Assembly (NCBI GenBank): GCA_028278645.1
Contig: JANQDZ010000047.1
Coordinates: 186,001-250,000 of the forward strand
Direction of reading: 5' to 3'
DNA length: 64,000 nucleotides
Source: Longimicrobiales bacterium
Lineage (GTDB): Bacteria; Gemmatimonadota; Gemmatimonadetes; Longimicrobiales; Gaopeijiaceae
The position numbers were made by a program, and so were the translations under genes. This document shows, one piece after another, positions 5,070-63,173 of the stretch. The notes below the pieces were generated by a model. That model was not told where the DNA came from, made no database searches, and saw nothing but the letters and a program-made list of their open reading frames with translations. How positions within the stretch are numbered: the first letter of the stretch is position 1; the number at the start of each line of letters is the position of its first letter.

Positions 5070-7844
5070 ATGAGACAGGTGTTTGAAGGGTTCGGGATCC
5101 TTCTTATGATCCTCGCCCCATTCCCAATGGGCGCACCCGCCTTGGCTGCCCAGGACGCAGATTCGGCGGCGGAAGCCACGTCCCAGGAAGGTCCGAGGCC
5201 CCTGACGCTGGAGGACTACGGTCGCTGGTCCACCATAGGCCAAGTGGCCCTCTCGGCCGATGGCCGTTGGATGACGTATGCGTACGCACCCAATGAAGGG
5301 GATTCAAAGCTCTACCTAAGGGACCTGGACGACCTCACTGGAGACCCGGTGGAGCTGTCGGAGAACGGGACCGGCCCCCAATTCAGTGCCGACTCGAGGT
5401 GGCTGGCCTACACCGTCTCTTCCGGGGAAGGGGAGGATCGGACCCGGACGCTTTTCCTCATGGACCTCGAATCTGAGGATCGATGGGAAGTGGATAATCC
5501 CTCGTCCTCTTCTTTCTCCGACGACTCTCGGTGGTTCGCGGCGCACAAGTCTCGTCCCGGCGAAGACGACGGGCCGAGGGGGGCAGACTTGATCCTTCAC
5601 GACCTCGGGGAGGGATCCATTACCAACATCGGGAACGTCGCCGAGGTGGCCTTCAACAAGGGCAGCACCCACATGGCGTATACCGTCGACGCCGAAGGTA
5701 AGGCCGGCAATGGGGTTTTCCTCTTGGAGTTGGGTAGTGGCCGGATGCTCCGCCTCGATACTGGAGACTTCTTCTACCAGGGGATCTCTTGGCACGAAGA
5801 AGGCAGGGCCCTCGCGGTCCTGCGAGGAAATGAGCCCGATGGTTTGGTTCTACGGGAGAATCAGCTGTTGACCTTCCCAACCCCTAGTTCCGACGCCCAG
5901 ATCTACGATCCGGTTACCGATTCGTCTTTCCCGGAGGGTTACGTCATCAGTGAGAACCGGGCCCCGTCCTGGAGCGAGGACGCTGAGAGGGTCTTCGTCG
6001 GAATCAAGGCACAACAAGAGGAGCTGGAGGAAGGCGAAGGACCGAAGGCGGATGTGGTGGTTTGGCACTGGAAGGACAAGAGGGTCCAGAGTCAGCAAGA
6101 GGTACAAGCCGGGAGGGACCGACGGACCACCTATCTCTCAGTGGTGAACCTGGACGGTTCGCGTTTCTTCCGGCTCGCGACGGAGGAGATGGAACAGGTT
6201 CAACTCACTCAGAATGGCCGGTGGGCAGTGGGTTTCGACGACTCGGAGTACTGGACCGATCGTGACCACGAGCGCAATCGAAACGATGTCTTCCGAATTG
6301 ATCCGACGACCGGTGACAGAGCCCTCATCACCGAGGCCCTTATCACAAGCATGGGGACTTCGCCGGATTCGAGATGGTTCCTCTATTGGCAGGACCAGAA
6401 GGTCCAAGCCTATGCCCTGGACTTGGGCTGGACTGTAGACCTCACCGCCGCCGCAGGGGGGATCGACTTCGAGAACAAGGAGTTTGATCGACCGGTGGAG
6501 AAACCCACCTACGGCGTCGGGGGTTGGTCCACCGACGGCGAGGCGGTCTTCTTGAACCACAAATACGACGTTTGGCAGGTGCCGCTGAACGGGGGAGAGG
6601 CCGTCAATCTCACTGGTGGCATGGGAGCCCGGGACGAGATCCGGTTCAGGATCATGGACCTGGACCCGGAGGATGACGGAATTGAAACGTCGGATCCGGT
6701 CCTCCTTTCGGCCTACGGGGAGTGGACAAAGAAGTCCGGTTACTTCCAGGCGAATCCAGGGCGGGCTCCGAAAGAGCTTCTCTTCGAGGACGCGATGTTG
6801 GGCACGGCCGGCTTCCGTGGGTCGGGAATCCGCAAGGCAAAGGACGCGGACCGAGTCCTCTTTACCCGACAAACCTTCGTTGACTTTCCAGACTTCTGGG
6901 TGACCGACTCGAGGTTCACCGCCCCGCTCAAGGTCACGGACGCCAACCCCCAGCAGGCGGAGTTCCTATGGGGAAGCCGGGTCCTGGTCGACTACACCGA
7001 TAATCGAGGCCACGACCTTCAAGCGACGCTGGCTCTTCCGGCCAACTACGAGGCGGGAACTCGTTATCCGATGATCATCTACTTTTACGAGAAGATGAGT
7101 CAGCGGCACCACGAGTACTCCAGGCCGACCTATGATGATCGGCCGCACATGTCCACGTACGCCAGTAATGGATATCTGGTTCTGATGCCTGACATCGTCT
7201 ACGACATGGGGTATCCTGGGAGCTCTTCCCTGGACGACGTGGTTTCGGCGGCCCAGGCGGCCATCGATCAAGGGTATGCCGACCCTGACCGGATCTGCCT
7301 CCAGGGGCATAGCTGGGGAGGGTACGAATCCTCATTCATCGTGACCCAGACCGATATGTTCGCCTGTGTGGTGACTGGCGCGCCCCTCACGAATCTCGTA
7401 TCCATGCACAATATCCTGTACAGACAATCCGGAAGCCCGAATGCCAATCTCATCGAATGGGGGCAGGGGCGGATGGACACGAGCCCGTTCCATGATTTGG
7501 ACCGCTATATCGCTGAATCACCGGTGCACAACGTGCAGGGAATCACGACGCCATTCCTTATCCTGCATGGGACGGATGACGGGGCGGTGGATTGGAACCA
7601 AGGGTTGGAGTACTACATCGCGGCCCGACGCATGGGGAAAGAGGTCATCCTCCTTTCCTACCCGGGAGAGCCGCACCACCTGAGCCGAGAGGAAAACCAG
7701 AAGGACTTTCAGATCAGAATGAAGCAGTACTTCGATCACTACTTAAAGGACGCTCCTGCTCCGACCTGGATGAAAGACGGCGTGCCCTTCCTCGAGAAAG
7801 ATCGGATCGGGCCAACGGCTGGGCTGGAAAAGGGCGGGATCTAG
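5070..7844 (+). CDS. Exported S9 family peptidase (prolyl oligopeptidase type)
   Basis: This is a serine peptidase of the S9 family, likely acting on peptides in the periplasm. From ATG 5070 it is 924 residues long. A signal peptide occupies about residues 1-26 (cut near ALAAQ). Residues about 40-620 form a WD40-like beta-propeller (ALSADGRWMTY, FSADSRWLAY, SPDSRWFLYW). The C-terminal alpha/beta-hydrolase carries the triad Ser748 in GHSWGGY, Asp837 in HGTDDGAV and His869 in GEPHHL. An ATG at 5064 is in frame but sits 1 nt after the AAGGA motif, whereas 5070 has normal spacing. The gene is complete. The downstream PPIase gene starts 38 nt after it, suggesting an operon whose second product helps fold exported proteins. 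Confidence 0.93.
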   Translation: MRQVFEGFGILLMILAPFPMGAPALAAQDADSAAEATSQEGPRPLTLEDYGRWSTIGQVALSADGRWMTYAYAPNEGDSKLYLRDLDDLTGDPVELSENGTGPQFSADSRWLAYTVSSGEGEDRTRTLFLMDLESEDRWEVDNPSSSSFSDDSRWFAAHKSRPGEDDGPRGADLILHDLGEGSITNIGNVAEVAFNKGSTHMAYTVDAEGKAGNGVFLLELGSGRMLRLDTGDFFYQGISWHEEGRALAVLRGNEPDGLVLRENQLLTFPTPSSDAQIYDPVTDSSFPEGYVISENRAPSWSEDAERVFVGIKAQQEELEEGEGPKADVVVWHWKDKRVQSQQEVQAGRDRRTTYLSVVNLDGSRFFRLATEEMEQVQLTQNGRWAVGFDDSEYWTDRDHERNRNDVFRIDPTTGDRALITEALITSMGTSPDSRWFLYWQDQKVQAYALDLGWTVDLTAAAGGIDFENKEFDRPVEKPTYGVGGWSTDGEAVFLNHKYDVWQVPLNGGEAVNLTGGMGARDEIRFRIMDLDPEDDGIETSDPVLLSAYGEWTKKSGYFQANPGRAPKELLFEDAMLGTAGFRGSGIRKAKDADRVLFTRQTFVDFPDFWVTDSRFTAPLKVTDANPQQAEFLWGSRVLVDYTDNRGHDLQATLALPANYEAGTRYPMIIYFYEKMSQRHHEYSRPTYDDRPHMSTYASNGYLVLMPDIVYDMGYPGSSSLDDVVSAAQAAIDQGYADPDRICLQGHSWGGYESSFIVTQTDMFACVVTGAPLTNLVSMHNILYRQSGSPNANLIEWGQGRMDTSPFHDLDRYIAESPVHNVQGITTPFLILHGTDDGAVDWNQGLEYYIAARRMGKEVILLSYPGEPHHLSREENQKDFQIRMKQYFDHYLKDAPAPTWMKDGVPFLEKDRIGPTAGLEKGGI

Positions 7845-50417: not shown

Positions 50418-51812
50418 ATGTCTGAAAAACGAGGGATTCCCTCACCCCAAGCCCCTCTCCGGGTGCTGGATCAAGCCGGCGAGGCCCAATTCTTCGAGAC
50501 CGTTCTCCGGTGTGTCGCCGACGGCGTATTCACGGTCGACACCGAGTGGCGGATCACATCGTTCAACCGAGCCGCCGAGAGAATCACCGGTGTGCCGGTA
50601 GAAAAAGCCATCGGGAAACGATGCTCCGAGGTTTTTCACTCGGATCTGTGTGAACATGCTTGCCCGATTCGGGAGACGTTGGATACCGGATCGGAAGTGA
50701 TCGACCGAGCCGCCCGAATCCTCAATCGGCAAGGCGGCTCCGTTCCCATCAGCGTCAGCAGCGCCATTCTCCGGTCAGAGGACGGGACCCTACTCGGGGC
50801 CGTCGAGACCTTCCGGGATCTCTCTACACTGGAACAGCTGAGGCGGGAGATCAAAAGCCAATGGACCTTCGAAGATATCATTGGAAAGAGCGAGGCTTTC
50901 CAGAAGATCTTCGCAATCCTTCCGGACATCGCCGACAGCGAGAGCACGGTTCTCATCGAAGGACCGAGTGGATCGGGGAAGGAGTTGATAGCTAGGGCGA
51001 CCCACAATCTGAGTCCCCGGAAAAAAGGACCCTACGTGGTGGTGAACTGCGGGACCCTGCCGCCGAACCTGTTCGAGTCGGAGCTGTTCGGATATCTGAA
51101 AGGCGCTTTCACCGACGCCAAGAAGGACAAGCCCGGGCGGATTACCCTGGCCGAAGGGGGAACCCTGTTTCTCGACGAGATCGGTGACCTCCCGCCCGAG
51201 ACCCAGGTGAAGCTTCTACGGCTTCTCCAGGAACGGGAATACCACCCCCTGGGATCGGTGGACACTCACAAAGCGGACGTCCGCGTAGTTGCCGCCACAA
51301 ATCGGGACCTCTCGTCCCTCGTGAGCCAAGGAAAGTTCCGAGACGACCTTTACTTCCGGCTGGCGGTGGTCCGCCTATCCATCCCGCCCCTCTCGGACCG
51401 CAGGCAGGATATCCCATTCCTCATCGACCATTTTATCCAGCGCTTCAACCGTCGCCGGGGGAAACGGATTCAAGGCGTTACGCCCGCGGTCATGGAGGTC
51501 CTCATGAGGCACCCGCTCCCGGGGAATGTGCGGGAGCTGGAAAACATCATCGAGTACTGTTTTGTCCTTTGCCGGAATGGATTCATCGACGTCAGGCACC
51601 TCCCTGACGACCTGAATCCGGAGGCCGAAACGGCCGAAGCCCCCGTCAGCCCGGGGCCCATGGCGCCCCTGCAAGAGAGCGAGGCTGACACGATCCGGCG
51701 GATCCTCGCATCAAACGAGGGGAACAGAGCTCGAACGGCGGAGGATCTCCGTATCAGCCGGACGACCCTCTGGCGGAAGATGAAGAAGCACGGGATAGCG
51801 TTTCACCCGTGA
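50418..51812 (+). CDS. Sigma-54 enhancer-binding protein with Cys-containing PAS domain
   Basis: This 464-residue activator of sigma-54 RNA polymerase has three domains. The PAS domain (about 20-135) contains the Cys cluster in RCSEVFHSDLCEHACPIRETL. The AAA+ core (about 150-385) has Walker A GPSGSGKE (182-189), Walker B GTLFLDEIG (about 251) and NVRELENIIEY near its end. The sigma-contacting loop reads GAFTDA (229-234) instead of GAFTGA, a variant seen in other activators. A Fis-type helix-turn-helix occupies about 425-462 (ARTAEDLRISRTTLWRKMKKH). There is no receiver domain, so sensing is probably through PAS, perhaps redox or Fe-S linked. ATG 50418 has GGAGGTGG upstream. The gene sits directly before a redox operon with a -24/-12 promoter. 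Confidence 0.95.
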   Translation: MSEKRGIPSPQAPLRVLDQAGEAQFFETVLRCVADGVFTVDTEWRITSFNRAAERITGVPVEKAIGKRCSEVFHSDLCEHACPIRETLDTGSEVIDRAARILNRQGGSVPISVSSAILRSEDGTLLGAVETFRDLSTLEQLRREIKSQWTFEDIIGKSEAFQKIFAILPDIADSESTVLIEGPSGSGKELIARATHNLSPRKKGPYVVVNCGTLPPNLFESELFGYLKGAFTDAKKDKPGRITLAEGGTLFLDEIGDLPPETQVKLLRLLQEREYHPLGSVDTHKADVRVVAATNRDLSSLVSQGKFRDDLYFRLAVVRLSIPPLSDRRQDIPFLIDHFIQRFNRRRGKRIQGVTPAVMEVLMRHPLPGNVRELENIIEYCFVLCRNGFIDVRHLPDDLNPEAETAEAPVSPGPMAPLQESEADTIRRILASNEGNRARTAEDLRISRTTLWRKMKKHGIAFHP

Positions 51813-51949: not shown

Positions 51950-51980
51950 CTTGTATAGGCCAGATTCATGGAGGTCGAAC

Positions 51981-52352
51981 GTGAGAGTCGCAATACCGCG
52001 AATGGGAGAAACCGTGGCACCCTGCTTCGAATACTGTGCCACGATGGCCATCTTCGACGTCGCCGAGTCAGGCGTCGTCGACCAGGTCGACTTTCCCCTT
52101 CAGAGCCGGGAGCCTTTTGACCGGGTCCGCCTTCTGAGAGACCAGGAGGTGGATACCGTGATCTGTGGCGGAATCCAGGCCTTCTATGAGGACCTGCTGA
52201 AGGCCAGCGGACTCCAGGTGATTTCATGGGTCGAAGGGACCGTGGACGACCTCCTGGCCCTCTTCATCAGAGGGGAGCTCGTAGCGGGTACTGAGCTCCC
52301 CCTGGATTGCGGGCCGGACTTCTTTCCGATGAAAAGAATGACGGAGCACTGA
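51981..52352 (+). CDS. NifX/NifB C-terminal-like protein
   Basis: This 123-residue protein of the dinitrogenase iron-molybdenum cofactor family begins RVAIPRMGETVAPCFEYCATMAIFDV and contains VDTVICGGIQAFYEDLLKASGLQVISWVEGTVDDLL. Cys14 and Cys18 or nearby residues might bind a metal or cluster. The start is GTG 51981, preceded by GGAGG; a TTG at 51951 is upstream of the predicted transcription start and is rejected. It is the first gene of the sigma-54-type operon, 3 nt before the next start. The role is unknown; metal delivery or cluster handling for the following Fe-S proteins is inference. Confidence 0.85.
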   Translation: MRVAIPRMGETVAPCFEYCATMAIFDVAESGVVDQVDFPLQSREPFDRVRLLRDQEVDTVICGGIQAFYEDLLKASGLQVISWVEGTVDDLLALFIRGELVAGTELPLDCGPDFFPMKRMTEH

Positions 52353-52355
52353 CCT

Positions 52356-53744
52356 TTGGCGACCGCGCAGAAATACAGCTACAACGTCGAGCAGAAGGGG
52401 TTGGAGGGTTCGGACAAACCCCGGCGATTCCTGGAAGCCTTCTCGGCCATCCTCCGCCACGGGAACTACCACGTTGCCCTGGACACCTTCTCACGCCTGA
52501 GCGCCAAGTGCGGGAGGTGTGCAGCCTCCTGCCAACTCTACGAAGCGACCGGTGCAGAAGAGGACATACCATGCCACCGGTCGGAACTCCTCCTCCGGGT
52601 ATTTCGGCGGTACTTCACCAACGCCGGGGTTCTTAAAGCCAAGCTGTTCGGAGGGTTCACGCTCACCGACGAATACGTGGACGAGATGGCCGAATCCTTT
52701 TACCGGTGCACGGCTTGCCGTCGCTGTAAGGCCACCTGCCCGGTGGGGATCGACCATGCCCTCGTCACCCACCTGGCAAGGTGGGTTTTGGCTGAGATCG
52801 ACGTCATCCCCAGGGCCCTTCTGGTCTCGGTGAGAGAACAGTTGGAGGGCGATTCAGGAAACACCTCGGCCATCCCCGTTCCCGCGTTAAAAGACACCTG
52901 TGAGTTCCTGGAAGAGGAGCTGGACGATCTCTACAACGTAGACATCAAGTTCCCCTTCGATGAGGAGGGGGCGGAGTTCGTGTTCTTCCCGGCTGTCTCG
53001 GACTTCATCATGGAGGCGGACACCCTCATGGGTAACGCCGCTGTGATGCACACCTCTGGGGGGTCATGGACCATCGGGACCGGGAACTTCGACGGGATCA
53101 ACTACGGCCTGTTCTACTCCGACCGGATGATGGAGAAGATCGTCGGAAACGTCCTGGACGAGGTAAAGCGGCTGAAGGCCAAGAAGATCCTGATCGGAGA
53201 ATGTGGTCATGCTACCCGATCGGCTTGGTATATCCCCACTTTTGGTGGACCTGACGCCCCCGATGTGGTGAACTGTCTCGAGTATGCTTACGAACAGTTC
53301 AAAAAAGGGAAAATCCCCCTCAAAGACGAGAAGATTCCGGAGCGGGTCACGTACCACGACCCCTGCAACATCGCGCGCTCCGGGAAGATCGTCGACCAGC
53401 CCAGAGAGATCCTGAGAGCGATTTGCGCCGACTACGTGGAGATGACACCGGGCGGCACGGAGAACTACTGCTGCGGCGGAGGCGGCGGCACGGTATCCAT
53501 CGACGAGATTCGCGAGTTTAGGACCGGTCCGCTGGGGCAGCGGAAGGCCGACCAGATCCGAGCCACCGGGGCTCAGATCGTCATCTCTCCCTGCGCTAAC
53601 TGCAAGAAACAGCTGAAAGAGCTTTGCCAGGACAACGGCATGGAGGACGTGGAGGTCATGGGCCTTCACGACCTCCTCCTCCGCGTTCTCGACTTCGGGG
53701 AATGGGAAAAAGCCCCGGAGGCCGAGGACGTGGCTGCGGACTGA
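52356..53744 (+). CDS. HdrD/DsrK-type Fe-S protein (CCG domain)
   Basis: This 462-residue protein resembles DsrK/TmcB/HdrD. N-terminal Cys groups suited to two [4Fe-4S] clusters are CGRCAASC (C52, C55, C59) and CTACRRCKATCPVG (C118, C121, C124, C128). The C-terminal part has CCG-type motifs: HDPCNIARSGK (about 330), NYCCGGGGG (about 371) and SPCANCKKQLKEL (about 410), which in HdrD-like proteins hold a catalytic non-cubane cluster for disulfide chemistry. It is expected to be a soluble partner of the membrane cytochrome encoded next. The start is TTG 52356, with GGAG about 9 nt upstream. It resembles the second HdrD-type gene at 60613 but lacks that gene's long N-terminal extension. Confidence 0.9.
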   Translation: MATAQKYSYNVEQKGLEGSDKPRRFLEAFSAILRHGNYHVALDTFSRLSAKCGRCAASCQLYEATGAEEDIPCHRSELLLRVFRRYFTNAGVLKAKLFGGFTLTDEYVDEMAESFYRCTACRRCKATCPVGIDHALVTHLARWVLAEIDVIPRALLVSVREQLEGDSGNTSAIPVPALKDTCEFLEEELDDLYNVDIKFPFDEEGAEFVFFPAVSDFIMEADTLMGNAAVMHTSGGSWTIGTGNFDGINYGLFYSDRMMEKIVGNVLDEVKRLKAKKILIGECGHATRSAWYIPTFGGPDAPDVVNCLEYAYEQFKKGKIPLKDEKIPERVTYHDPCNIARSGKIVDQPREILRAICADYVEMTPGGTENYCCGGGGGTVSIDEIREFRTGPLGQRKADQIRATGAQIVISPCANCKKQLKELCQDNGMEDVEVMGLHDLLLRVLDFGEWEKAPEAEDVAAD

Positions 53745-53771: not shown

Positions 53772-54473
53772 ATGGATGTTTGGCTTCAATGGGCCATGGG
53801 GCCCCTCTTCTGGACGGCGATGGCCTTTATGGTCCTGGGGCTGGTCCGTCATGTGGGCCTAACGGTATGGGGAAGCTTCCGGGCCTACCGGCGCGCGGGG
53901 GACAAGAGATTCCCCGTCGGCAAACTCGTGGGGAGCACTCTCCACTGGCTCGTTCCCGTGGGTAAGGTTCGGAACCGAGGCTTTTTCAGCCTCACCACGG
54001 TTCTCTTCCATGCTGGGGTCATACTGGTACCCCTCTTCCTGGCCGGGCACATCCAACTCTGGCGAGCCGGGGTTGGAATCACCTGGCCCGCTCTCCCGAA
54101 TGGCGTGGCTACCACGCTCACCTGGGTGGTGATCGCGACGGCATTCGCCCTGGTCGTCCAGCGGGCCGGGGCCAAGGACAGCCGGGCCCTCAGCCGGTTC
54201 CAGGACTATGCCCTTCCGCTACTCATCGTGATCCCCTTTCTGACAGGGTTCCTCGTGATGCACCCCGCCTGGAATCCCTTTGGTAGGGACCCTGTTCTGC
54301 TGGTGCATGTGCTGAGCGCGGACCTGCTGATCTTCCTGGTTCCTCTCACCAAGCTCAGTCACATGATCCTCATGCCTTTTACCCAGCTCGTGTCTGAGCT
54401 CGCCTGGCACTTCCCTGAGGATGCCGGGAGTCGAGTTGGCGTCACCCTGGGCAAAGAAAACGAGCCAATTTGA
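53772..54473 (+). CDS. NarI/DsrM-type membrane cytochrome b
   Basis: This 233-residue integral membrane protein is of the nitrate-reductase gamma/HmcE/TmcC/DsrM type. It has about five hydrophobic segments, at about 8-30, 72-95, 108-128, 148-168 and 178-200. His residues in or near the helices (TVLFHAGVILVPLFLAGH; LLVHVLSADLLIF; KLSHMIL) are suitable heme b ligands. It should pass electrons between menaquinone and the HdrD-like protein encoded upstream. It is separated from that gene by 27 nt and overlaps the region before the next start (stop 54471-54473, ATG 54476). Confidence 0.85.
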   Translation: MDVWLQWAMGPLFWTAMAFMVLGLVRHVGLTVWGSFRAYRRAGDKRFPVGKLVGSTLHWLVPVGKVRNRGFFSLTTVLFHAGVILVPLFLAGHIQLWRAGVGITWPALPNGVATTLTWVVIATAFALVVQRAGAKDSRALSRFQDYALPLLIVIPFLTGFLVMHPAWNPFGRDPVLLVHVLSADLLIFLVPLTKLSHMILMPFTQLVSELAWHFPEDAGSRVGVTLGKENEPI

Positions 54474-54475
54474 CC

Positions 54476-55246
54476 ATGTCTGTCGCGATCTTAATCGACG
54501 TTACCAAGTGTGTGGGCTGTGAGGAGTGTGTTCTCGCCTGCAAGGAGGAAAACGATCTGGGCCCAGACAGGCTCCGGCCCGGTCAGCAGGCGGTGGACGG
54601 ACTCTCTGCCACCCGGTATTCCACCATTCTCCGCTACCCCGACGATCATTTTGTGCGGCAGCAATGTCGCCACTGCCTTGAACCTGCCTGCGTTAGCGCC
54701 TGCCTGGTGGGGGCCATGCGAAAAACCCCTGAGGGACCGGTCGTCTACGATTCCGATCTCTGCATGGGCTGTCGGTATTGCCTCGTGGCCTGTCCCTACG
54801 GGATCCCCCGATACGAATGGGACGAAGCGGCTCCCCTGGTGAGGAAGTGCACGCTCTGTAGCCACCGCATCGAAGAGGGAAGGGTACCGGCATGTGTGGA
54901 GGCCTGCCCGGAGGACGCTCTTCTCTTCGGGGATCGGGCCGCACTCCTGTCCGAAGCCCGCCGCAGAATCGCGGAAAACCCAGGCAGCTATCTGGATCAC
55001 GTCTATGGTGAGAAAGAGGTGGGTGGCACGTCCGTGCTTTACCTATCCGACATCTCCCTGGGGTTCTTGGGGTGGGCGGAAAACCTGGGTGAGGGAGGCC
55101 TACCGCATCTGACTCACGCAGCCCTGAAGAAGGTTCCAGGGATTGTACTGGGAATGGGTAGCCTCATGGGAGGGATCTACTGGGTCATCAACCGGAGAAT
55201 GAAACTGGCCGCCCGGTCGGCAGAGGGAGGGCAGGGTCATGAGTAA
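54476..55246 (+). CDS. Four-cluster ferredoxin subunit (HybA/DsrO/HmcB type) with C-terminal membrane anchor
   Basis: This 256-residue protein has four Cys groups typical of four [4Fe-4S] clusters: CVGCEECVLACKEE, CRHCLEPACVSACLVGA, CMGCRYCLVACPYG and CTLCSHRIEEGRVPACVEACPEDA. A C-terminal hydrophobic segment (about 220-242, VPGIVLGMGSLMGGIYWVINRR) anchors it. HybA, DsrO and related subunits normally have a Tat signal; none is present here, because the first cluster motif begins by residue 13. The cellular side is therefore open. Its stop overlaps the start of the NrfD-type gene by 8 nt. It is an electron wire between the membrane partner and a cytochrome or quinone. Confidence 0.9.
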   Translation: MSVAILIDVTKCVGCEECVLACKEENDLGPDRLRPGQQAVDGLSATRYSTILRYPDDHFVRQQCRHCLEPACVSACLVGAMRKTPEGPVVYDSDLCMGCRYCLVACPYGIPRYEWDEAAPLVRKCTLCSHRIEEGRVPACVEACPEDALLFGDRAALLSEARRRIAENPGSYLDHVYGEKEVGGTSVLYLSDISLGFLGWAENLGEGGLPHLTHAALKKVPGIVLGMGSLMGGIYWVINRRMKLAARSAEGGQGHE

Positions 55247-57200
55247 CCGACTAAGGGCACTCAAAACCGTCCTCTGGGGCTTGGTTGGGGTTTTGGTTTC
55301 AGTATCGGTGGTTCGGTTTGTTCATGGTTTGGGGGCGGTGACGAATCTCTCTGACGCAGCTCCCTGGGGTCTCTGGATCGGCTTCGACGTGATGTCGGGT
55401 GTCGCCCTGGCGGCCGGCGGCTTCGTTCTGGCCGGGATCGTCTACATTTTCGGCTTGGAGCGGTATCGCCCCTTTGTGCGGGCGGCGATCCTGACGGCCC
55501 TGCTGGGATATGCCGCCGTCGCCGTGGGCCTCATCTACGACCTGGGGCTGCCTTGGCGGATTTGGCACCCCATGGTGAACTGGCAGTACCATTCGGTCCT
55601 CTTCGAAGTGGCCGCCTGCGTCATGCTGTACCTCACGGTGTTGACCCTGGAATTCCTGCCAGTGGTCCTGGAGCATCGGTTCTTCCAGGGTGCCTTTTTC
55701 CGGAAGGTGCTCAAAGCGTTGAAGAAGGTCACGATTCCGCTGGTGATCGCCGGGATCGTGCTCTCCACCCTCCATCAGTCGTCCCTGGGGTCGCTATTCC
55801 TCATTACTCCGTTCCGGCTCCATCCCCTCTGGTACTCGCCCATCATCTACGTCCTCTTCTTCATTTCGGCCGTGGGCCTGGGGCTGATGACCGTGGTGCT
55901 GGAATCCCTGTTCTCCAACTACTTCCTGGACCACAAGCTTCATGGAAGGGAGATCTCAGGACTGGGGTTGGCGGCCTCCGTCGTCCTTTGGGTTTATGTC
56001 GCCCTGAGGGTCGGGGATCTCTTGGTTCGAGGGGTCCTTCCATCGGCGTTGGATGGCTCCTGGCAGAGTGGGCTTTTTGTTGCGGAGTTGGCCTTCAGCG
56101 CGGTCATCCCTGCCGTCCTCATGCTCCTAAAACCCATCAGGCAGAGTATCGCCGGTGTGGGTGTGGCGGCTTCCATGGTTGTCCTCGGGATGATCTGGCA
56201 TCGGCTGGACGTCTCTATCGTGGCCTTCGCCCGACCTGAAGGAATGGGCTACCTCCCGAGCTGGGAGGAGTTCGCTGTGAGCTTTGGAATCGTCGCCGGA
56301 GGAATCCTCGTCTTCCTCTTCTTCGTCGAAAATCTGAACGTGTTCGACGACGTGAGAGGCCACCCGCCCGAGGAGGATCCTGGTTTCCAAGCGGAGGCCA
56401 CCGTCTCCTTCCTGCCAGGCCCCCTGGGCTTCCCCCGGCGCTACTCCGTAGCGGCACTGTCTGGGGGGATCCTGGCACTCCCCTTCCTGCCCGTTGGTGG
56501 GGTCCAGCCCACACCGTCTCCGGTTCAAGGTCCCAGGAGCGTGGCGGCTTACGTCAGCCCGGCTTCCAACGGCGAGACCCGTGGACTGGCATTGGTGGGT
56601 TCAGGGGACCTGCTCCCGATCCGGGTCCTGATGCTCGACGCGAATCGAGACGGCGATGTGGTTCTCTTCGACCACGACGATCACGCCGCCCGCCTCGGGG
56701 GGGAACAGTCCTGTGAGACCTGTCACCACCTGACCAAACCCCTGGACAAAAACACGTCCTGCTTCGAGTGCCACACGGACATGTACGAGCCCCGGTCGGT
56801 ATTCGACCATGACGTTCACGCGGCTCAACTCGGAGGTTCGGAGGGGTGCGTTCAGTGTCACGGCGAGGGTTCGGAGGTGAAGAGCTACGAGACCGTCACC
56901 GAATGCTCGGAATGTCATCGGAACGAAATCTCAACACGTGCCTTCATCAACCCCCCGGAGGCTAGATGGGGAAACGCCGTCGGATACATGGACGCCATGC
57001 ACTCCCTCTGCGTCGAGTGCCATACCAGGGAGGCTCTCACAGCCCCGGCTCATAATCCCGAGAACCTCAACCAGTGCATGACATGCCACGATGTGGACTG
57101 GCGTGAGGACGTTCGAAGGCTGATGCCGCACCTGGCCGGTATGGAAAGGGTCACTGCGGGCCCCCGCCCCGCAGCTGCCCAGTTGGGAGCCGGTGGATGA
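55239..57200 (+). CDS. HybB/NrfD-type quinone-interacting membrane protein fused to hexaheme cytochrome c
   Basis: This 653-residue protein has an N-terminal HybB/NrfD integral-membrane domain (about 1-375, ten hydrophobic segments, with the HybB-like STLHQSSLGSLFLI). A further membrane segment lies near 410-425. The C-terminal cytochrome domain (about 465-630) has six CxxCH heme c sites: CETCH, CFECH, CVQCH, CSECH, CVECH and CMTCH. His-rich FDHDDHAARLGG and FDHDVHAAQLGG precede two of them, as in class III cytochromes, where they supply distal ligands. In DsrMKJOP, Hmc and Qrc systems the NrfD-type protein and the multiheme cytochrome are separate. The heme domain should face the periplasm. 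No separate cytochrome gene is nearby. Confidence 0.92.
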   Translation: MSNRLRALKTVLWGLVGVLVSVSVVRFVHGLGAVTNLSDAAPWGLWIGFDVMSGVALAAGGFVLAGIVYIFGLERYRPFVRAAILTALLGYAAVAVGLIYDLGLPWRIWHPMVNWQYHSVLFEVAACVMLYLTVLTLEFLPVVLEHRFFQGAFFRKVLKALKKVTIPLVIAGIVLSTLHQSSLGSLFLITPFRLHPLWYSPIIYVLFFISAVGLGLMTVVLESLFSNYFLDHKLHGREISGLGLAASVVLWVYVALRVGDLLVRGVLPSALDGSWQSGLFVAELAFSAVIPAVLMLLKPIRQSIAGVGVAASMVVLGMIWHRLDVSIVAFARPEGMGYLPSWEEFAVSFGIVAGGILVFLFFVENLNVFDDVRGHPPEEDPGFQAEATVSFLPGPLGFPRRYSVAALSGGILALPFLPVGGVQPTPSPVQGPRSVAAYVSPASNGETRGLALVGSGDLLPIRVLMLDANRDGDVVLFDHDDHAARLGGEQSCETCHHLTKPLDKNTSCFECHTDMYEPRSVFDHDVHAAQLGGSEGCVQCHGEGSEVKSYETVTECSECHRNEISTRAFINPPEARWGNAVGYMDAMHSLCVECHTREALTAPAHNPENLNQCMTCHDVDWREDVRRLMPHLAGMERVTAGPRPAAAQLGAGG

Positions 57201-58363
57201 CCCCTAACCGACTCGGTCACATCGAGGAGATCCAGGAATGGCTCAGGGCTCACCTGTTCGACCAGGTCCCCGTAGCCATCAGCATCATCGACAGGAACTA
57301 CAACATCGTCGATGCAAATCCTCGGTTCGAGAAGAGCTACGGCAGATGGCGGGGACGCCCCTGCTACGAGGTCTACAAAGATCGCCGTGCGCCGTGCACG
57401 GAATGCGCGGCGCTGAAGACGTTCGAGGACGGGAAAGTCCGGATCAGGGAGGAGAAGGGGAGAATCGAAAACGGGAATCCTATGGACTACCTGGTTCATA
57501 TGGTCCCTGTTCGTGGCCCGCTGGGGAAGATCCGGTTCATCGTGGAGATGTCCACCGACATCACAGAAGTGAAAAAGCTGGAGAGAGAGAAGCGGGAAGC
57601 TGAGAGGCTAGCAGCCGTCGGTGAAACCGTCGCCGGTATTGCCCACGGGATCAAGAACGTCCTCATGGGCTTGGAGGGCGGGATGTATGCTGTGAACACG
57701 GGTATCGAGCTTGCCGACGATGCACGGATCGCCCGTGGCTGGATGACCCTCGAGGAGAACGTCAAGAGAATCTCGGAGTTCGTTAAAGAGTTCCTGGATT
57801 TCGCCAAAGGCCGGAAAACCAAGGTAGCCCCTGTTGATCCCAACCTTCCTGCACAGGAGGTCTCGGATCTTTTCCGAGAACGGGCCGCCCAGGCCGGCGT
57901 CAGGTTGGAGGTCGACCTGGAACAGGGGCTCCGGGAAGCCGCTCTGGATCAAGACGCCATTCACACCTGCCTCTCCAACCTGGTCTCCAACGCCATCGAC
58001 GCTTGTATGGTCGCCGAACAAACCCGGGAATTCGTGGTGACCCTCAGTTCCCGGGAGGCCAACGGAGTTCTGATCTACGAGGTGACGGACAACGGGTTGG
58101 GCATGGACTACGAGATCTCCAAGAAGGTCTTCTCGAAGTTCTTCACCACCAAAGGATCGGACCGGGGGACGGGCCTGGGCCTCCTGACGACCAAACGCAT
58201 GATTCATCAGCACGGAGGCCAGATCTCCTTCACCTCGACGGAGGGGGAGGGATCAACTTTCCGGATCGAGCTGCCCAGGGGATCGCTTCCGATCCCTGAA
58301 TCCGAGAACGACATACAAGAAGTCGAAGTCTGCTCCTTAAGGACTGAAGAGGTGACGCCATGA
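57197..58363 (+). CDS. PAS histidine kinase
   Basis: This 388-residue soluble-looking kinase has a PAS domain (about 15-110) with the Cys cluster GRPCYEVYKDRRAPCTECAALKTF, similar in spacing to the one in the sigma-54 activator. A coiled linker follows, then a phospho-acceptor His in VAGIAHGIKNVLMGLE and the ATPase with NLVSNAIDAC (N box), DNGLGM (G1) and GTGLGL (G2). There are no membrane segments. Its start overlaps the preceding cytochrome gene stop by 4 nt, and its stop overlaps the first response regulator. It is most simply a sensor of redox state or ligand for the operon's own electron-transfer complex. Confidence 0.93.
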   Translation: MTPNRLGHIEEIQEWLRAHLFDQVPVAISIIDRNYNIVDANPRFEKSYGRWRGRPCYEVYKDRRAPCTECAALKTFEDGKVRIREEKGRIENGNPMDYLVHMVPVRGPLGKIRFIVEMSTDITEVKKLEREKREAERLAAVGETVAGIAHGIKNVLMGLEGGMYAVNTGIELADDARIARGWMTLEENVKRISEFVKEFLDFAKGRKTKVAPVDPNLPAQEVSDLFRERAAQAGVRLEVDLEQGLREAALDQDAIHTCLSNLVSNAIDACMVAEQTREFVVTLSSREANGVLIYEVTDNGLGMDYEISKKVFSKFFTTKGSDRGTGLGLLTTKRMIHQHGGQISFTSTEGEGSTFRIELPRGSLPIPESENDIQEVEVCSLRTEEVTP

Positions 58364-58887
58364 CCCGACCCCAGGACAAGACGGTTCTGGTGGTGGACGA
58401 CGAGCCGAACGTGAGGCAATACCTGGCCCAGATCCTCCTGGATGCCGGATTTAACGTGGTTCAGGCAGGGGACGGAGCGGAGGCTCTGGAGATCATTCGG
58501 GAGCAGCCTCCCGACTTCATCTCCCTGGACCTGGTCATGCCCCGGAAGAGCGGGCACAAGCTGCTCTATGAGCTCCGGAAAGATCGGAAGCTGTCTCAAA
58601 TCCCTGTCCTCATCGTTACGGCCCACGCTCAGGACGAATTGGGCCAAGGCGATCTGAGGGACATCATGGACAACCGGGTCCTGTCTGGACCTGGAGTCTA
58701 CCTGGAAAAGCCGGTGAAACCCCTGAGCTACGTTCGGGCGGTTCAGCGTGCACTCGGGATCGAAGAAACGCCGGAGGACGAAGACAGGATCTCCCTTCAG
58801 GAGGAGCTCCAAAACGCCCTTCCGGATGCCGAGCCCCACGCCCTTCGCCGGGCCCTGGAGGCTCTCAAAAAACAAGGAACACTGTGA
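58360..58887 (+). CDS. Receiver-domain response regulator
   Basis: This 175-residue protein has a receiver domain (about 1-125: VLVVDDEPNVRQYLAQIL, phospho-Asp in FISLDLVMPRKSG, LIVTAHAQDE, LEKPVKP) and a short C-terminal helical tail (about 130-175). It has no DNA-binding or enzymatic output domain. Overlaps of 4 nt on both sides place it tightly between the kinase and the second receiver protein. It may relay phosphate or act by protein contact, perhaps on the PAS activator. Confidence 0.9.
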   Translation: MTRPQDKTVLVVDDEPNVRQYLAQILLDAGFNVVQAGDGAEALEIIREQPPDFISLDLVMPRKSGHKLLYELRKDRKLSQIPVLIVTAHAQDELGQGDLRDIMDNRVLSGPGVYLEKPVKPLSYVRAVQRALGIEETPEDEDRISLQEELQNALPDAEPHALRRALEALKKQGTL

Positions 58888-59282
58888 TGAAGAAAAAAAT
58901 CCTCATCGTAGATGATGAGCCGGCAATCGTGAGTTACCTGGAGATGGTTCTCCAGGACCAGGGGTACGATACCGTTACTGCCGGGAATGGGAATGAGGCC
59001 TTGGACGCCGCCCGGGCAGGTAAACCAGACCTGGTCACCCTGGACATCACCATGCCCGAGGCCTCCGGTACACGGTTCTATAAAGAGTTGAGGACGGACC
59101 CGGAGCTCTCCGAAATTCCGGTGATTATCGTGACCGCGGTCACGGGCCTTGGCGGCGACAAGTACGCCTACGAGAAGTTCATCAGCAACCGGAGTCTGGT
59201 TCCGGCACCCGAAGGCTTCTTCCCCAAGCCCATCGACCGTGAGGCTTTCATAGAGGCGGTGAACGGACTTCTGGCAGCCTAG
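58884..59282 (+). CDS. Receiver-only response regulator
   Basis: This 132-residue protein is a receiver domain with almost nothing else: KILIVDDEPAIVSYLEMVL, phospho-Asp in LVTLDITMPEASG, IIVTAVTGLGG and FPKPIDREAF. It is the last gene of the operon and is related to its neighbour. The absence of an output domain suggests a phosphorelay sink or an interaction partner. Confidence 0.9.
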   Translation: MMKKKILIVDDEPAIVSYLEMVLQDQGYDTVTAGNGNEALDAARAGKPDLVTLDITMPEASGTRFYKELRTDPELSEIPVIIVTAVTGLGGDKYAYEKFISNRSLVPAPEGFFPKPIDREAFIEAVNGLLAA

Positions 59283-59638: not shown

Positions 59639-59689
59639 CATCGTTCTTAAGGATTTTGGGCGTTTTCGTTGTTACAACAGAGAGGACCA

Positions 59690-60616
59690 ATGTCCGCCTC
59701 AACACTGATTCTGCTTTCGTACGTTTTGCTGGCCATATTTGCGGTGTTTTTTGTCCTCAAATCCCTGAAGATGGCCCGGATGCCGGTCCACGTCCGCTGG
59801 GAATTGGCTCCGGTCCCCCACGAGAAGGGGAGGGGACACTACGGGGGTTCATACCTGGAGGATGCGGAGTGGTGGACCAAGCCCCGCGAAAAGGACCACG
59901 TGGCTGAAGCCACCTACATGTTCAAGGAGATTCTCTTCCTGAAGGCCCTCTTCGAACACAAGCGGAGCCTTTGGTGGTTCTCCTTCCCCTTCCACTTCGG
60001 AATGTACCTCCTCATCGGCGCCGTCGTTCTGCTGGCTCTTGGCGCCCTGGGTTCCGTCACCGGATTGGTGGGCACGGACATGTGGCTCTTCGCCACGGGA
60101 TACCCCCTTCTGGCTGGGGTCGGATACGCCCTGGGACTCCTGGGGGCCGTGGGCCTCTTCCTGACGCGGATGGTGGAGAAAGGCATGGCAAACTCCACGA
60201 CCTACGCCACCTACTTCAACGTTCTACTGCTCGGATCGCTGTTCGGTACCGGGCTGTGGGCCTCTTTCTCCGTGTCGGATTTCAGCGGACAGACCTTGGG
60301 TTTCATTGGTGCCCTCTTCACGGCTGACATGTCCGTGGAGCTAGCCGGGATCCTGAAGGCACATTTCCTCCTGGCTTTTGCATTTCTAGCCTACCTGCCC
60401 TTCACCCAGATGATGCATTTCGTGGCGAAGTACTTCACCTACCACGAGATCCGCTGGGATGACGAACCGGTTGAGCCGGGCGGGAAGATGGAGAAAGAGA
60501 TTTTGGAGCTGCTCGGGCAATCACCAACCTGGGCTGGGCCCCACGTCAGGGCCGACGGGAAGAAGACTTGGGTGGACATCGCCACCGACACCGGCGCGCA
60601 GGAGGCCGAAAAATGA
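59690..60616 (+). CDS. dsrM: DsrM-type membrane cytochrome b
   Basis: This 308-residue membrane protein matches DsrM/HmeC better than NarI. A first helix (about 3-25, LILLSYVLLAIFAVFFVL) is followed by a cytoplasmic segment with EWWTKPREKDHVAEATYMFKEILFLKALFEHKR. Helices with likely heme b ligands come next (FPFHFGMYLLIGAVV; KAHFLLAFAFLAYLPFTQMMHFVAKYF). The C-terminus is soluble and acidic. It should exchange electrons with menaquinone and deliver them to, or receive them from, DsrK. ATG 59690 has AGAGGA upstream; the in-frame TTG 21 nt earlier is disfavoured. Its stop overlaps the DsrK start (ATGA). Confidence 0.85.
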   Translation: MSASTLILLSYVLLAIFAVFFVLKSLKMARMPVHVRWELAPVPHEKGRGHYGGSYLEDAEWWTKPREKDHVAEATYMFKEILFLKALFEHKRSLWWFSFPFHFGMYLLIGAVVLLALGALGSVTGLVGTDMWLFATGYPLLAGVGYALGLLGAVGLFLTRMVEKGMANSTTYATYFNVLLLGSLFGTGLWASFSVSDFSGQTLGFIGALFTADMSVELAGILKAHFLLAFAFLAYLPFTQMMHFVAKYFTYHEIRWDDEPVEPGGKMEKEILELLGQSPTWAGPHVRADGKKTWVDIATDTGAQEAEK

Positions 60617-62223
60617 GCGACAAGGTTCGCGTGAAGGATATTGGGAAGAAAGAACTCCCCATGCTGTCTGAGGTTCGGCCGGAGGAGTTGATTCCGCTTC
60701 CGCCGCCGTACGACAAGGTCGAAGACCTGCCGGGATTTAAAGAGATCACCGACGAAAAGAAGGAGAGGGTGGTCTGCAACCTGGACGGGGTCATCGCTTC
60801 CGCTATGCCCCATCCGGAAAGCCCTGAGGAAGAACAGAAGTACGTCGACATGTTCGTGGACGGGCTGAAAAAGCTCCTGTCCAAGGAGAACAACTGGACC
60901 TTCCTCCAGCCCCTGACCTTGTCCCTCGAGTACTGTATCGGGTGTCAGACCTGCGCAGACGCCTGCCACGTATTCGAGGCTACGGGTGGAAAAGAGATCT
61001 ATCGGCCTACCTACCGGTCGGAGGTGTGGCGCCGGTTGGTGAACAAGTACGTGAAGCCCGGCGGAAAGCTGATCGCCCCGCTGAAGGGCGCAGACATCGA
61101 CCTGAACTGGACGACGATCACGCGCCTTTATGAGCTCACATACCGCTGCAACCTCTGCCGCCGCTGCGCCCAGGTTTGCCCCGTCGGTGTGGACAACGGC
61201 CTCATCGCCCACGAGCTGCGGAAGCTCTTCAGCCAGGAGCTGGGCTGGGCCCCCACCGAGCTCCACGACAAAGGCACCGAGCTGCAGCTGGAAGTGGGCT
61301 CCTCCACCGGCATGAACTCCGTCGTGGTTAAAGACAACATCGAGTTCATCGATGAGGACATGACAGACGAGACGGGGATCGAGACCGAAACCCCCTTCGA
61401 CAAGGAGGACGCGGACGTTCTCCTCATCCACAACGCTGGTGAGATGCTGGCCTGGCCCGAGAACCCCGGCGCCTTCGCCATCATCCTCAACGCTGCCGGG
61501 ATCGACTGGACCCTCTCGTCGGAAGAGGTTGGTTACGACGGTGTGAACTACGGCCTCTTTTACGACGACGTTCAGCTTGCCAGGATCGCCATCAAACACT
61601 CCCAGGCTGCCCAGAAGCTGAACGCCAAGCGTGTGGTAATGGGCGAGTGCGGTCACCAGCACAAAGCCATGGTGACCATCGCGGACCGAGTGCTGGTGGG
61701 GGACCTGGCGGTGAAGCGGGAGAGCTTCCTGCCCCTCCTCGAGGAGATCGTCTTCAGCGGCAAGATCGAGTTCGACCCGTCGAAGAACGACTTCCCGGTT
61801 ACCCTCCATGACCCCTGCAACATCGTCAGGAATCTGGGGATCGTGGAACCGCAGCGTCGGATTCTTCGCTATCTGTGCCCGCAGTTCCGGGAGATGACTC
61901 CCCACGGCGTGGACAACTACTGCTGCGGCGGCGGTTCCGGATTCGCCATCATGTCCGGGAACAACTACGAGGACTGGAGGAACAACGTAAGCGGTCGTGT
62001 GAAGTTCAAGCAGATCATCGACGCTTTCCAGGACCAGCCGGGACCGGAGGTGAAGAAGTACCTCTGCGCCCCCTGCTCCAACTGTAAGGGTCAGATTCGG
62101 GATCTCCTGAACTACTACGGCGCCCTGGATAAGAGCGGCATCACCTACGGCGGTCTGGTGGAGCTCATCGTGAACGCCATGGTTGACGTGAAAGAGCCCT
62201 TCATCAAGTGGGAGATGTTCTAG
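60613..62223 (+). CDS. dsrK: DsrK-type Fe-S protein (CCG domain)
   Basis: This 536-residue protein has an N-terminal extension (about 1-100) typical of DsrK. Two ferredoxin-type cluster sites follow (C108, C111, C114, C118 in CIGCQTCADACH; C179, C182, C185, C189 in CNLCRRCAQVCPVG). The HdrD-like catalytic part has HDPCNIVRN (about 400), NYCCGGGSG (about 436) and CAPCSNCKGQI (about 485), and it ends GGLVELIVNAMVDVKEPFIKWEMF-like, a recognisable DsrK C-terminus. In sulfite-reducing organisms DsrK is thought to reduce the DsrC trisulfide; no dsrC is seen here, so the partner may differ. A strong terminator follows. Confidence 0.88.
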   Translation: MSDKVRVKDIGKKELPMLSEVRPEELIPLPPPYDKVEDLPGFKEITDEKKERVVCNLDGVIASAMPHPESPEEEQKYVDMFVDGLKKLLSKENNWTFLQPLTLSLEYCIGCQTCADACHVFEATGGKEIYRPTYRSEVWRRLVNKYVKPGGKLIAPLKGADIDLNWTTITRLYELTYRCNLCRRCAQVCPVGVDNGLIAHELRKLFSQELGWAPTELHDKGTELQLEVGSSTGMNSVVVKDNIEFIDEDMTDETGIETETPFDKEDADVLLIHNAGEMLAWPENPGAFAIILNAAGIDWTLSSEEVGYDGVNYGLFYDDVQLARIAIKHSQAAQKLNAKRVVMGECGHQHKAMVTIADRVLVGDLAVKRESFLPLLEEIVFSGKIEFDPSKNDFPVTLHDPCNIVRNLGIVEPQRRILRYLCPQFREMTPHGVDNYCCGGGSGFAIMSGNNYEDWRNNVSGRVKFKQIIDAFQDQPGPEVKKYLCAPCSNCKGQIRDLLNYYGALDKSGITYGGLVELIVNAMVDVKEPFIKWEMF

Positions 62224-62330: not shown

Positions 62331-63173
62331 TCAGGCCGGTTTGCTTTCGGCCCCCGGCTCGAGCTCGAGCAAGGACCCCCTCACGACCTCTTCGATCCGT
62401 TCGCAGACCTGAGGTTTTTCGAGCATGCTCACCACCAGGCGGTGTCGGGGCCGCTGCAACATCCTCCCCATGGAGTCCGGAGGGATGGCCAGGATCACGC
62501 GGATATGGGGAAGGCGGGGGTCGGCGGCGATGGAGTCCAGGAGACCAAACCCCTGATCCGGCAGCCCCTCCATGTCGATGATGGCGATCTCAGGGCGGAA
62601 GTCCTGGACCAGCGCTGAGGCCTCGTAACCGTTTCGTGCGAACCGTAAGGAGACGGAGTCGTCACCCACCCACTCGATCCGGTTCACAAGCTCCTCGTCG
62701 GAGCTGATGAAGAGGACCTGGGTGCTCATGCCTTGGATACGTCGGTAGTAGACGCAGTCCTCGCACGATCCCTCGCAGAACTCGTGGGCGTGACCGATGT
62801 CCGAATCCAGGCCAGCCATGAGAAAGCACCGGGTAGCCTTGACCCGATAGACCACACATTGCCGACAGCCGTCCCTAACCTCTCCGTCATCGGAAAGAAA
62901 CTCCCAACAGGGGACCTCTTCGGGATCCTCTTTTGTCCCGTCCTGGGACGGAATGGGCGAGTACGCCGTGGGGGTGGTCACGGCCGTGGATTGCTGACCG
63001 AACCCGGCCATGAAGGGCTCCAGGTCCGGGAGGGCCACCCTGTAGTGGCCCCCAGCCGTCCGCGTGGCTGCCAAACGGCCTTTTTTTATCCATTTGAGGA
63101 CGGTATCCGGGGTAACCGCGCAAAGCTTCGCGGCCTGGCCGGTGGTCAGAAGACCTGCCTTCTCCGCTGCCAT
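62331..63173 (-). CDS. Helix-turn-helix, two-CW and receiver-like regulator
   Basis: This 280-residue regulator has three parts. The N-terminus (about 5-55) is a MerR/excisionase-like helix-turn-helix (LLTTGQAAKLCAVTPDTVLKWIKKGRLAATRTAGGHYRV). The middle (about 85-150) is Cys-rich: CWEF, then CRQCVVYRVKATRCF, then CEGSCEDCVYY, the two-CW-type spacing that could hold Fe-S or Zn. The C-terminus (about 150-270) resembles a receiver (VLFISSDEELV, IAIIDMEGLPDQG, ILAIPPD, MLEKPQ), with Asp present in IIDMEG. It starts at ATG 63173 and converges on dsrK. A redox sensor for the neighbouring operons is a reasonable inference, and it may instead control the divergent macro-domain gene. Confidence 0.8.
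   Translation of the reverse strand: MAAEKAGLLTTGQAAKLCAVTPDTVLKWIKKGRLAATRTAGGHYRVALPDLEPFMAGFGQQSTAVTTPTAYSPIPSQDGTKEDPEEVPCWEFLSDDGEVRDGCRQCVVYRVKATRCFLMAGLDSDIGHAHEFCEGSCEDCVYYRRIQGMSTQVLFISSDEELVNRIEWVGDDSVSLRFARNGYEASALVQDFRPEIAIIDMEGLPDQGFGLLDSIAADPRLPHIRVILAIPPDSMGRMLQRPRHRLVVSMLEKPQVCERIEEVVRGSLLELEPGAESKPA

Follow-up and report, generated by a model that had tools for sequence, protein, structure and literature searches.

Many of the lineages with dsrAB belong outside the Desulfobacterota and have not been cultured; the coupling of their sulfite reduction to the membrane has largely been guessed from Desulfovibrio. The described membrane complexes that invite comparison keep their quinone module and cytochrome apart: DsrMKJOP has a separate triheme DsrJ and, in DsrP, a distant branch of the NrfD family; QrcABCD has separate QrcA and QrcB subunits; and the Hmc complex of Desulfovibrio (HmcABCDEF) has a separate 16-heme cytochrome, HmcA, together with HmcB, which the consulted part of PMC10924467 describes as a tail-anchored protein integrated by the twin-arginine translocation (Tat) system. 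Several papers, in the parts available to us, likewise place NrfD-type proteins beside separate multiheme cytochromes, not fused to them. Here we describe, in a 64,000-nucleotide stretch of DNA from a Longimicrobiales bacterium (GenBank assembly GCA_028278645.1, contig JANQDZ010000047.1, positions 186,001 to 250,000; hereafter the window), a gene that joins an NrfD-type quinone module to a hexaheme cytochrome c in a single polypeptide. With moderate confidence, we take this fusion to be the subunit that bears the quinone site and the cytochrome in a membrane complex linked to Dsr and resembling Hmc and DsrMKJOP.

The fusion gene (55239-57200, forward strand) is one uninterrupted ATG-to-stop frame of 653 amino acids with exactly six CxxCH motifs, as a preliminary description of the window had stated, and no CxxCH motif occurs in any other non-overlapping open reading frame (ORF) of at least 90 amino acids kept for the whole window. 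The gene shares 8 bases with the HmcB-like gene ahead of it and 4 with the kinase gene behind it. The parts of the fusion and the three subunits encoded ahead of it are:

52356-53744, forward strand: DsrK/HmcF-like (HdrD-type) iron-sulfur (Fe-S) protein with two [4Fe-4S] motifs and a CCG site (NCBIfam DsrK 272.6 bits, cut-off 400; TmcB 193.6, cut-off 735; HmcF 185.3, cut-off 750)
53772-54473, forward strand: HmcE/TmcC-like (NarI-type) cytochrome b (NCBIfam TmcC 125.9 bits, cut-off 240; HmcE 114.8, cut-off 275)
54470-55246, forward strand: HmcB-like subunit of the 4x[4Fe-4S] type with a C-terminal hydrophobic tail and without a Tat signal (NCBIfam HmcB 275.6 bits, cut-off 420, match from model position 36; DsrO 121.3, cut-off 200)
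55239-56351, forward strand: NrfD/HmcC-type quinone module of the fusion, residues 1-371, ten transmembrane helices (Pfam NrfD, NCBIfam HmcC, ActC fold match)
56421-56489, forward strand: eleventh helix of the fusion, residues ~395-417, with RR just ahead
56604-57134, forward strand: hexaheme c-type cytochrome domain of the fusion, HmcA/class III-like, with six CxxCH motifs and six more conserved histidines (Pfam, conservation, profile comparison with solved structures)

The membrane part of the fusion matches the Pfam NrfD family (PF03916) over residues 34-323 with 61.9 bits, above the cut-off of 25.8. Its NCBIfam scores are 303.5 bits for HmcC (cut-off 550), 283.6 for HybB and 124.2 for QrcD (cut-off 570), and DsrP does not appear among its matches at E 0.01 in the same profile scan. 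An AlphaFold2 model built from 43 aligned sequences (pLDDT 77, pTM 0.72) places ten long helices within residues 3-366, then a loop, an eleventh helix at residues 397-416, and the heme domain last. The preliminary description, which counted about ten helices, was thus right for the NrfD module and overlooked the eleventh. Residues 1-371 resemble ActC of alternative complex III (6btm_C; Z 32.4, r.m.s.d. 3.4, 360 aligned) in a structure comparison that covered residues 33-371 only and from which the heme-domain fold was not judged; its table held no Dsr, Hmc or Qrc structure and is uninformative about these either way. Four residues of the module, D50, Y91, Y131 and E138, are kept in HybB and in all 48 fused rows of our alignment, a count that here and below includes three rows repeating a gene already fetched. 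They would correspond, by spacing rather than by alignment with QrcD itself, to D70, Y110, Y150 and E157, for which the consulted part of Duarte et al. (PMC6303296) proposes a role in the QrcD proton channel. As a separate observation, each of the same 48 hexaheme-group rows has Glu at position 364, where helix ten ends, but most rows of the unfused or Tat type have Lys, Arg or Asn there.

C-type hemes are attached in the periplasm, so the cytochrome domain must face it. Mean counts of Lys and Arg in the loops favor a cytoplasmic N-terminus for the fused proteins (11.3 on the inner versus 5.0 on the outer side, 48 rows), for signal-less unfused relatives (11.2 versus 7.4, 36 rows) and for Tat-type relatives (11.8 versus 7.1, 8 rows); the signal-less rows were sorted by text pattern, and an RR match in L057 was judged not to be a signal. 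With the N-terminus inside, the eleventh helix would take the chain across to the periplasm and put the cytochrome there, and it looks like an uncleaved anchor; this linker helix is retained in other fusion loci. The charge signal is less clear around it: the loop ahead holds more acidic than basic residues (D+E 6.4, K+R 4.3), and the stretch behind has a K+R mean of 3.2, higher than the remaining outer loops. A flipped membrane module was considered and rejected on the loop charges of all three groups and on the periplasmic location of c-type hemes.

The heme domain itself matches Pfam class III cytochrome c over residues 474-560 with 52 bits (cut-off 22.9). Across the window and 42 further loci, the heme-motif cysteines and histidines are kept in 43 of 43 sequences, except Cys556 in 42 (L015 deviates). 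Six further histidines (479, 482, 497, 524, 527 and 588) are kept in all 43, His482 in 41. Six is the number needed for one distal ligand per heme, and bis-histidine ligation would fit this pattern. In profile comparison, the best solved relatives are 16-heme HmcA-type cytochromes (1z1n at E 1.9e-24, then 2e84, 1h29 and 1gws). A model of the domain alone was of low confidence (pLDDT 62.8, pTM 0.34, no structural match below E 1) and was not used.

A search of genome contigs with the fusion protein gave at least 569 relatives, of which the best 80 were kept as loci. Forty-five of these 80 are single-frame fusions with at least three CxxCH motifs, and 42 form the hexaheme group (41 with six CxxCH, L015 with five); the other three (L052, L056 and L073) are fused and fall outside it. 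The same-genus relative (contig of L009) is 88% identical over residues 1-653. The covalent join of quinone module and cytochrome, proposed from the window alone, is therefore real and conserved. Among the loci kept, the carriers fall, by record title or tree label, under eleven or more phylum labels, including Gemmatimonadota, Zixiibacteriota, Planctomycetota, Chloroflexota, Acidobacteriota, Armatimonadota, Myxococcota (L025, titled Deltaproteobacteria), Ignavibacteriota, Calditrichota, Bacteroidota and Electryoneota. In a tree that omitted 3 repeats, 14 rows thinned by hand and the short matches L055, L098, L114 and L115, one branch has 45 fused rows, including two truncated by contig ends, together on one side; since its support is only 72.6, a single origin of the hexaheme fusion is not shown.

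Heme tails also occur on another branch of HmcC relatives, triheme in L052 and L073 and hexaheme in L056, and from these we conclude that NrfD-cytochrome joins probably arose more than once. A larger frame, also outside the hexaheme group (L116:7707-10919, reverse strand, genome G043), comprises 1071 residues and combines a HybA/HmcB-like part, whose start is Tat-like, with a HybB-like part and eleven CxxCH motifs. The same genome holds three copies of the hexaheme fusion (L113, L114 and L115), in two of which the profile match is split near residue 230.

The fusion mostly travels with dsr genes. We examined 337 genomes in three draws, 80 from Zixibacteria, 199 from Acidobacteriota and 58 from the window's family. 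In Zixibacteria, the fusion is present in 22 genomes (two seen in part) and dsrA in 31 (29 over cut-off and two contig-end fragments); in Acidobacteriota, the fusion is present in 11 and dsrA in 20 (19 over cut-off); and in the family, the fusion is present in 4 (one as a contig-end fragment only) and dsrA over cut-off in 5. All 37 carriers have dsrA, and none of the 281 dsrA-negative genomes of the draws (49, 179 and 53, respectively) has the fusion, under searches that may miss split or fragmentary fusions (Acidobacteriota, E <= 1e-150 and at most 6 candidates per genome; Zixibacteria, E <= 1e-30 and at most 16). The negatives include seven family genomes whose dsrA matches reach no more than ~27 bits, and two genomes without dsrA (G158 and G182), whose matches run through stops, three of them to profile position 462-477, were counted as unfused on the basis of frames of 413-437 amino acids. 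Only 1 of 33 Zixibacteria with unfused homologues alone has dsrA, so in that phylum it is the fusion, rather than HmcC relatives in general, that is linked to dsrA.

A second set, the 43 genomes behind loci L009-L051, overlaps the draws (G063, G072, G079, G081, G083, G087, G092 and G093, with L009 on the same contig as the fusion of G029). In this set, 33 genomes have dsrA over cut-off. Among the remaining ten, dsrB is over cut-off in G097, and G095 has a contig-end dsrA fragment and a dsrA match in its locus L046. Six of the 43 loci hold dsr genes within the fetched stretch (L031, L038, L042, L043, L046 and L050); a 26% match to aprA in L011 was left uncounted. In L038 and L050, dsrABD lies upstream of the fusion on the opposite strand, and in L042 dsrA-dsrB-dsrD lies ~1.5 kb downstream, with a frame in between (6294-7762) that we take to be transposase-like. 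The tightest arrangement is L135 (genome G260), where regulator, kinase, HmcF, HmcE, HmcB, fusion, dsrA, dsrB and dsrD follow one another on one strand, ~0.3 kb separating the fusion from the likely dsrA start.

HmcF, HmcE and HmcB stand immediately upstream of the fusion, in that order, in 30 of 32 testable loci among the 43 examined, and the remaining two hold all three, listed out of order because open frames overlap. An HdrD/NarI-type pair had been noted beside the fusion, and both subunits are indeed encoded there. In the HdrD-type subunit, both [4Fe-4S] motifs are kept in 35 of 35 sequences and the CCG-site cysteines in 34 of 37 or better; in the cytochrome b, H80 and H93 are kept in 40 of 40 rows and H179 and H197 in 41 of 41, and these four invariant histidines would be enough for two hemes b.

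The HmcB-like subunit departs from expectation. Its Fe-S core begins 4.7 codons past the HmcE stop in the window and 1.7-10.7 codons past it in all 45 fused-group loci that show both genes, so that a Tat signal would need to overlap the HmcE gene. This count comes from 47 loci, of which L013 and L048 have no HmcB on the contig; L049 is cut ahead of its heme part. RR patterns upstream of the core in L014, L031, L039 and L051 overlap the HmcE frame and were not counted as signals. E. coli HybA and several HybA/HmcB relatives do have a twin-arginine signal, and unfused relatives without a recognizable one are also common. The C-terminal hydrophobic tail, followed by Arg, is retained and would fit a cytoplasmic C-terminus. 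A cytoplasmic Fe-S subunit is the simplest reading, although the missing signal, the tail and the module orientation pull different ways. The missing signal also prompts the question of where the Fe-S subunit lies in many HybA/HybB-type modules.

On our best reading, the complex would join a cytoplasmic thiol/trisulfide carrier, menaquinone and periplasmic hemes. Electron exchange with this carrier would take place at the HdrD-type subunit. The carrier is most likely DsrC or one of its paralogues, and the dsr link favors DsrC. The path across the membrane would run through the pair of hemes b in the HmcE-like subunit and connect, in a presumed direction of flow, with a menaquinone site at the periplasmic side, forming a redox loop with the tethered hemes. 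Protons for the quinone would be drawn from the cytoplasm through the conserved QrcD/HybB-type channel, and the step would then be electrogenic. The fusion would keep one heme chain permanently at the quinone site. Support for such a loop comes from the channel residues together with the HdrD-type subunit and the cytochrome b.

This complex would work like Hmc and DsrMKJOP but, judged by the tests made, belongs to neither. It shares with Hmc the HmcB-, HmcC-, HmcE- and HmcF-like subunits, but its six-heme cytochrome is fused to HmcC, its gene order is F-E-B-C, no HmcD was recognized, and the HdrD-type subunit scores higher against DsrK than against HmcF. An HmcC above the NCBIfam cut-off was found in none of nine genomes tried. 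With DsrMKJOP it has in common the tie to the Dsr pathway and the kinds of parts (HdrD-type, cytochrome b, Fe-S, NrfD-type and multiheme c), but its heme part has six hemes and is fused, unlike the separate triheme DsrJ. Its cytochrome b is closest to TmcC and its operon encodes response regulators of the DVU0259 family, yet Tmc has no NrfD subunit (according to the part of PMC4215793 consulted). The E. coli hydrogenase-2 pair HybA-HybB offers a HybB-type module with the proposed proton-path residues conserved, but HybA has a Tat signal. In the window's host, which is 95.6% complete, no [NiFe] hydrogenase large subunit was found ([FeFe] enzymes fell outside that search), which makes a hydrogen donor in the style of Hmc unlikely. 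A HotSeep-1 protein encoded beside HdrA also joins c hemes covalently to a Dsr/Tmc-type electron-transfer part, although its hemes are joined to a thiol-active CCG domain and not to a quinone module (PMC10553843, consulted in part).

We found no earlier description of such a fusion in the titles and abstract openings surveyed, and one may yet exist in fuller texts. A word search found neither "fusion" nor "fused" in an NrfD review (PMC8076601), and the accessible parts of PMC6303296, PMC10564751, PMC9386147, PMC7082337, PMC7327174, PMC10504309, PMC10591310, PMC6018796, PMC8528874, PMC6338057 and PMC10553843 hold no NrfD-cytochrome fusion.

Several points weigh against a Dsr-linked complex of the Hmc/DsrMKJOP kind. 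All four subunits fall below the NCBIfam cut-offs, and an Fe-S subunit lacking an export signal is hard to square with an Hmc-type arrangement. The host genome has canonical dsrK and dsrP, so the fusion complex would be additional to DsrMKJOP and not a replacement for it. Only 22 of 31, 11 of 20 and 4 of 5 dsrA-positive genomes (Zixibacteria, Acidobacteriota and family, respectively) carry the fusion, which makes it accessory, and the Fisher values for the association (7e-13, 5e-13 and 1e-5 in the same order) overstate independence because the genomes are related. Moreover, eight of the 43 carriers show no clear dsrA or dsrB, in genomes of unstated completeness where gaps may explain some or all of these cases (G059, G065, G067, G077, G082, G094, G098 and G100, corresponding to L010, L016, L018, L028, L033, L045, L049 and L051). 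They include Gemmatimonadales (L010) and Zixiibacteriota (L028) carriers and one contig that stops ahead of the heme part (L049), and with them a strict fusion-dsr link is not proven.

The same eight carriers, and the lack of room for a Tat signal at all 45 loci, would suit an Hmc-like conduit in which ferredoxin or another low-potential carrier, and not DsrC, enters through the signal-less HmcB-like ferredoxin, the dsr link then reflecting a shared anaerobic lifestyle or gene-island transfer. For Desulfovibrio Hmc, a proposal exists that ferredoxin passes electrons to Tp1-c3 (in the part of PMC4215793 seen). We consider this route possible but unlikely: the HdrD-type subunit scores best against DsrK and keeps its CCG site, and the dsr gene linkage, with no fusion in dsrA-negative genomes of the draws, exceeds what lifestyle alone would give, because unfused homologues are common in dsrA-negative Zixibacteria. 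We are more doubtful still, and speak tentatively, of a new kind of Dsr-linked respiratory complex with a thiol-active HdrD and ferredoxin-like Fe-S subunit both in the cytoplasm and the quinone site and tethered hexaheme facing the periplasm. If true, two cytoplasmic entries, one thiol/trisulfide and one ferredoxin-like, would meet one quinone and one heme exit, an arrangement that might allow electrons to be split or joined across the membrane.

The cytochrome b/c1 precursor of Bradyrhizobium is a cleaved polyprotein, and the eleventh helix of the fusion, with its positive start and hydrophobic core, resembles a signal peptide; signal peptidase might cut after it and leave cytochrome and quinone module separate in the mature state. 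By motif inspection, though, no common AxA follows the helix (in the stretch inspected, the motif is missing from 28 of 43 sequences, and in 10 of the 15 that have one it lies inside the helix), and we judge cleavage improbable. What speaks for the Qrc-like hybrid put forward in the preliminary description is the count of six hemes together with a ten-helix module that matches QrcD as well, features that the two systems do share. It is nonetheless very unlikely, as HmcC and HybB match better, the heme domain is nearest to the HmcA type among solved structures (QrcA itself was not compared), and no QrcB-like gene was recognized among the operon ORFs in general family scans, which included no search aimed at QrcB or QrcA. 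Nor would an HdrD/NarI pair have taken the place of QrcB, as had been suggested; such a pair is normal in Hmc and DsrMKJOP, and nothing needs replacing. The chance that an assembly or sequencing error merged two genes, a worry raised at the outset, is negligible: nothing was found in its favor, and the same single frame with its linker helix recurs in 42 other loci under many phylum labels, which rules it out.

The complex sits in a recurrent gene order: sigma-54 regulator, small dinitrogenase-cofactor-type protein, HmcF, HmcE, HmcB, fusion, histidine kinase and response regulators, with variable ends. In 27 of 32 testable loci, a kinase is one of the three matched genes that follow the fusion. 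The flanking genes in the window are:

50424-51812, forward strand: sigma-54-dependent regulator, often upstream, start codon approximate (NCBIfam matches all below cut-off; synteny)
51951-52352, forward strand: small protein with a dinitrogenase Fe-Mo-cofactor-type domain, often upstream of the complex (Pfam PF02579, 32.6 bits; synteny)
57197-58363, forward strand: PAS sensor histidine kinase (Pfam HATPase_c, PAS_4)
58360-58887, forward strand: response regulator, best NCBIfam match DVU0259 family (77.5 bits, cut-off 160)
58884-59282, forward strand: response regulator, best NCBIfam match DVU0259 family (114.5 bits, cut-off 160)

In the Tmc system, a DVU0259-family regulator lies beside tmc. 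Cysteine clusters in the N-terminal parts of the kinase and the sigma-54 regulator are possibly redox or metal sensors. A second DsrM/DsrK-like pair follows the operon (window 59669-62223; DsrK 336.5 bits, cut-off 400), and a like pair, or its DsrK part, lies near the fusion in L009, L023, L040, L051, L060 and L135. Just beyond the window, contig C19 of the same genome (L112:2-2572) encodes a third cytochrome b and HmcF-like pair, the HmcF-like protein being fused to a DVU0259-type receiver domain. On contig C94 of that genome (L104:6974-11978), a DsrK/DsrM-like pair has three further DsrC-family matches next to it; a single tandem protein of 219 residues accounts for two of these. Two helix-turn-helix (HTH) proteins there resemble the window gene at 62331-63173.

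The host genome has dsrA, dsrB, dsrP, dsrK, qmoC and aprA over cut-off, as well as DsrC and a triheme DsrJ-like frame; dsrM and dsrO were assigned by position only. By dsrA, dsrB, dsrK, dsrP, qmoC and aprA (locus L103, on its contig C42), this Gemmatimonadota-kin genome is likely that of a sulfate reducer or sulfur oxidizer. Neither the dsr link nor the lack of an export signal in the Fe-S subunit had been noticed in the preliminary description. Found in many bacterial groups, mostly with sulfite-reduction genes, the fusion looks like an unrecognized part of sulfur respiration. Eight other carriers are unclear in this respect, but it was never seen without dsrA in the 337 genomes of the draws, and for the uncultured dsrAB lineages outside the Desulfobacterota it offers a testable membrane partner of the Dsr pathway.

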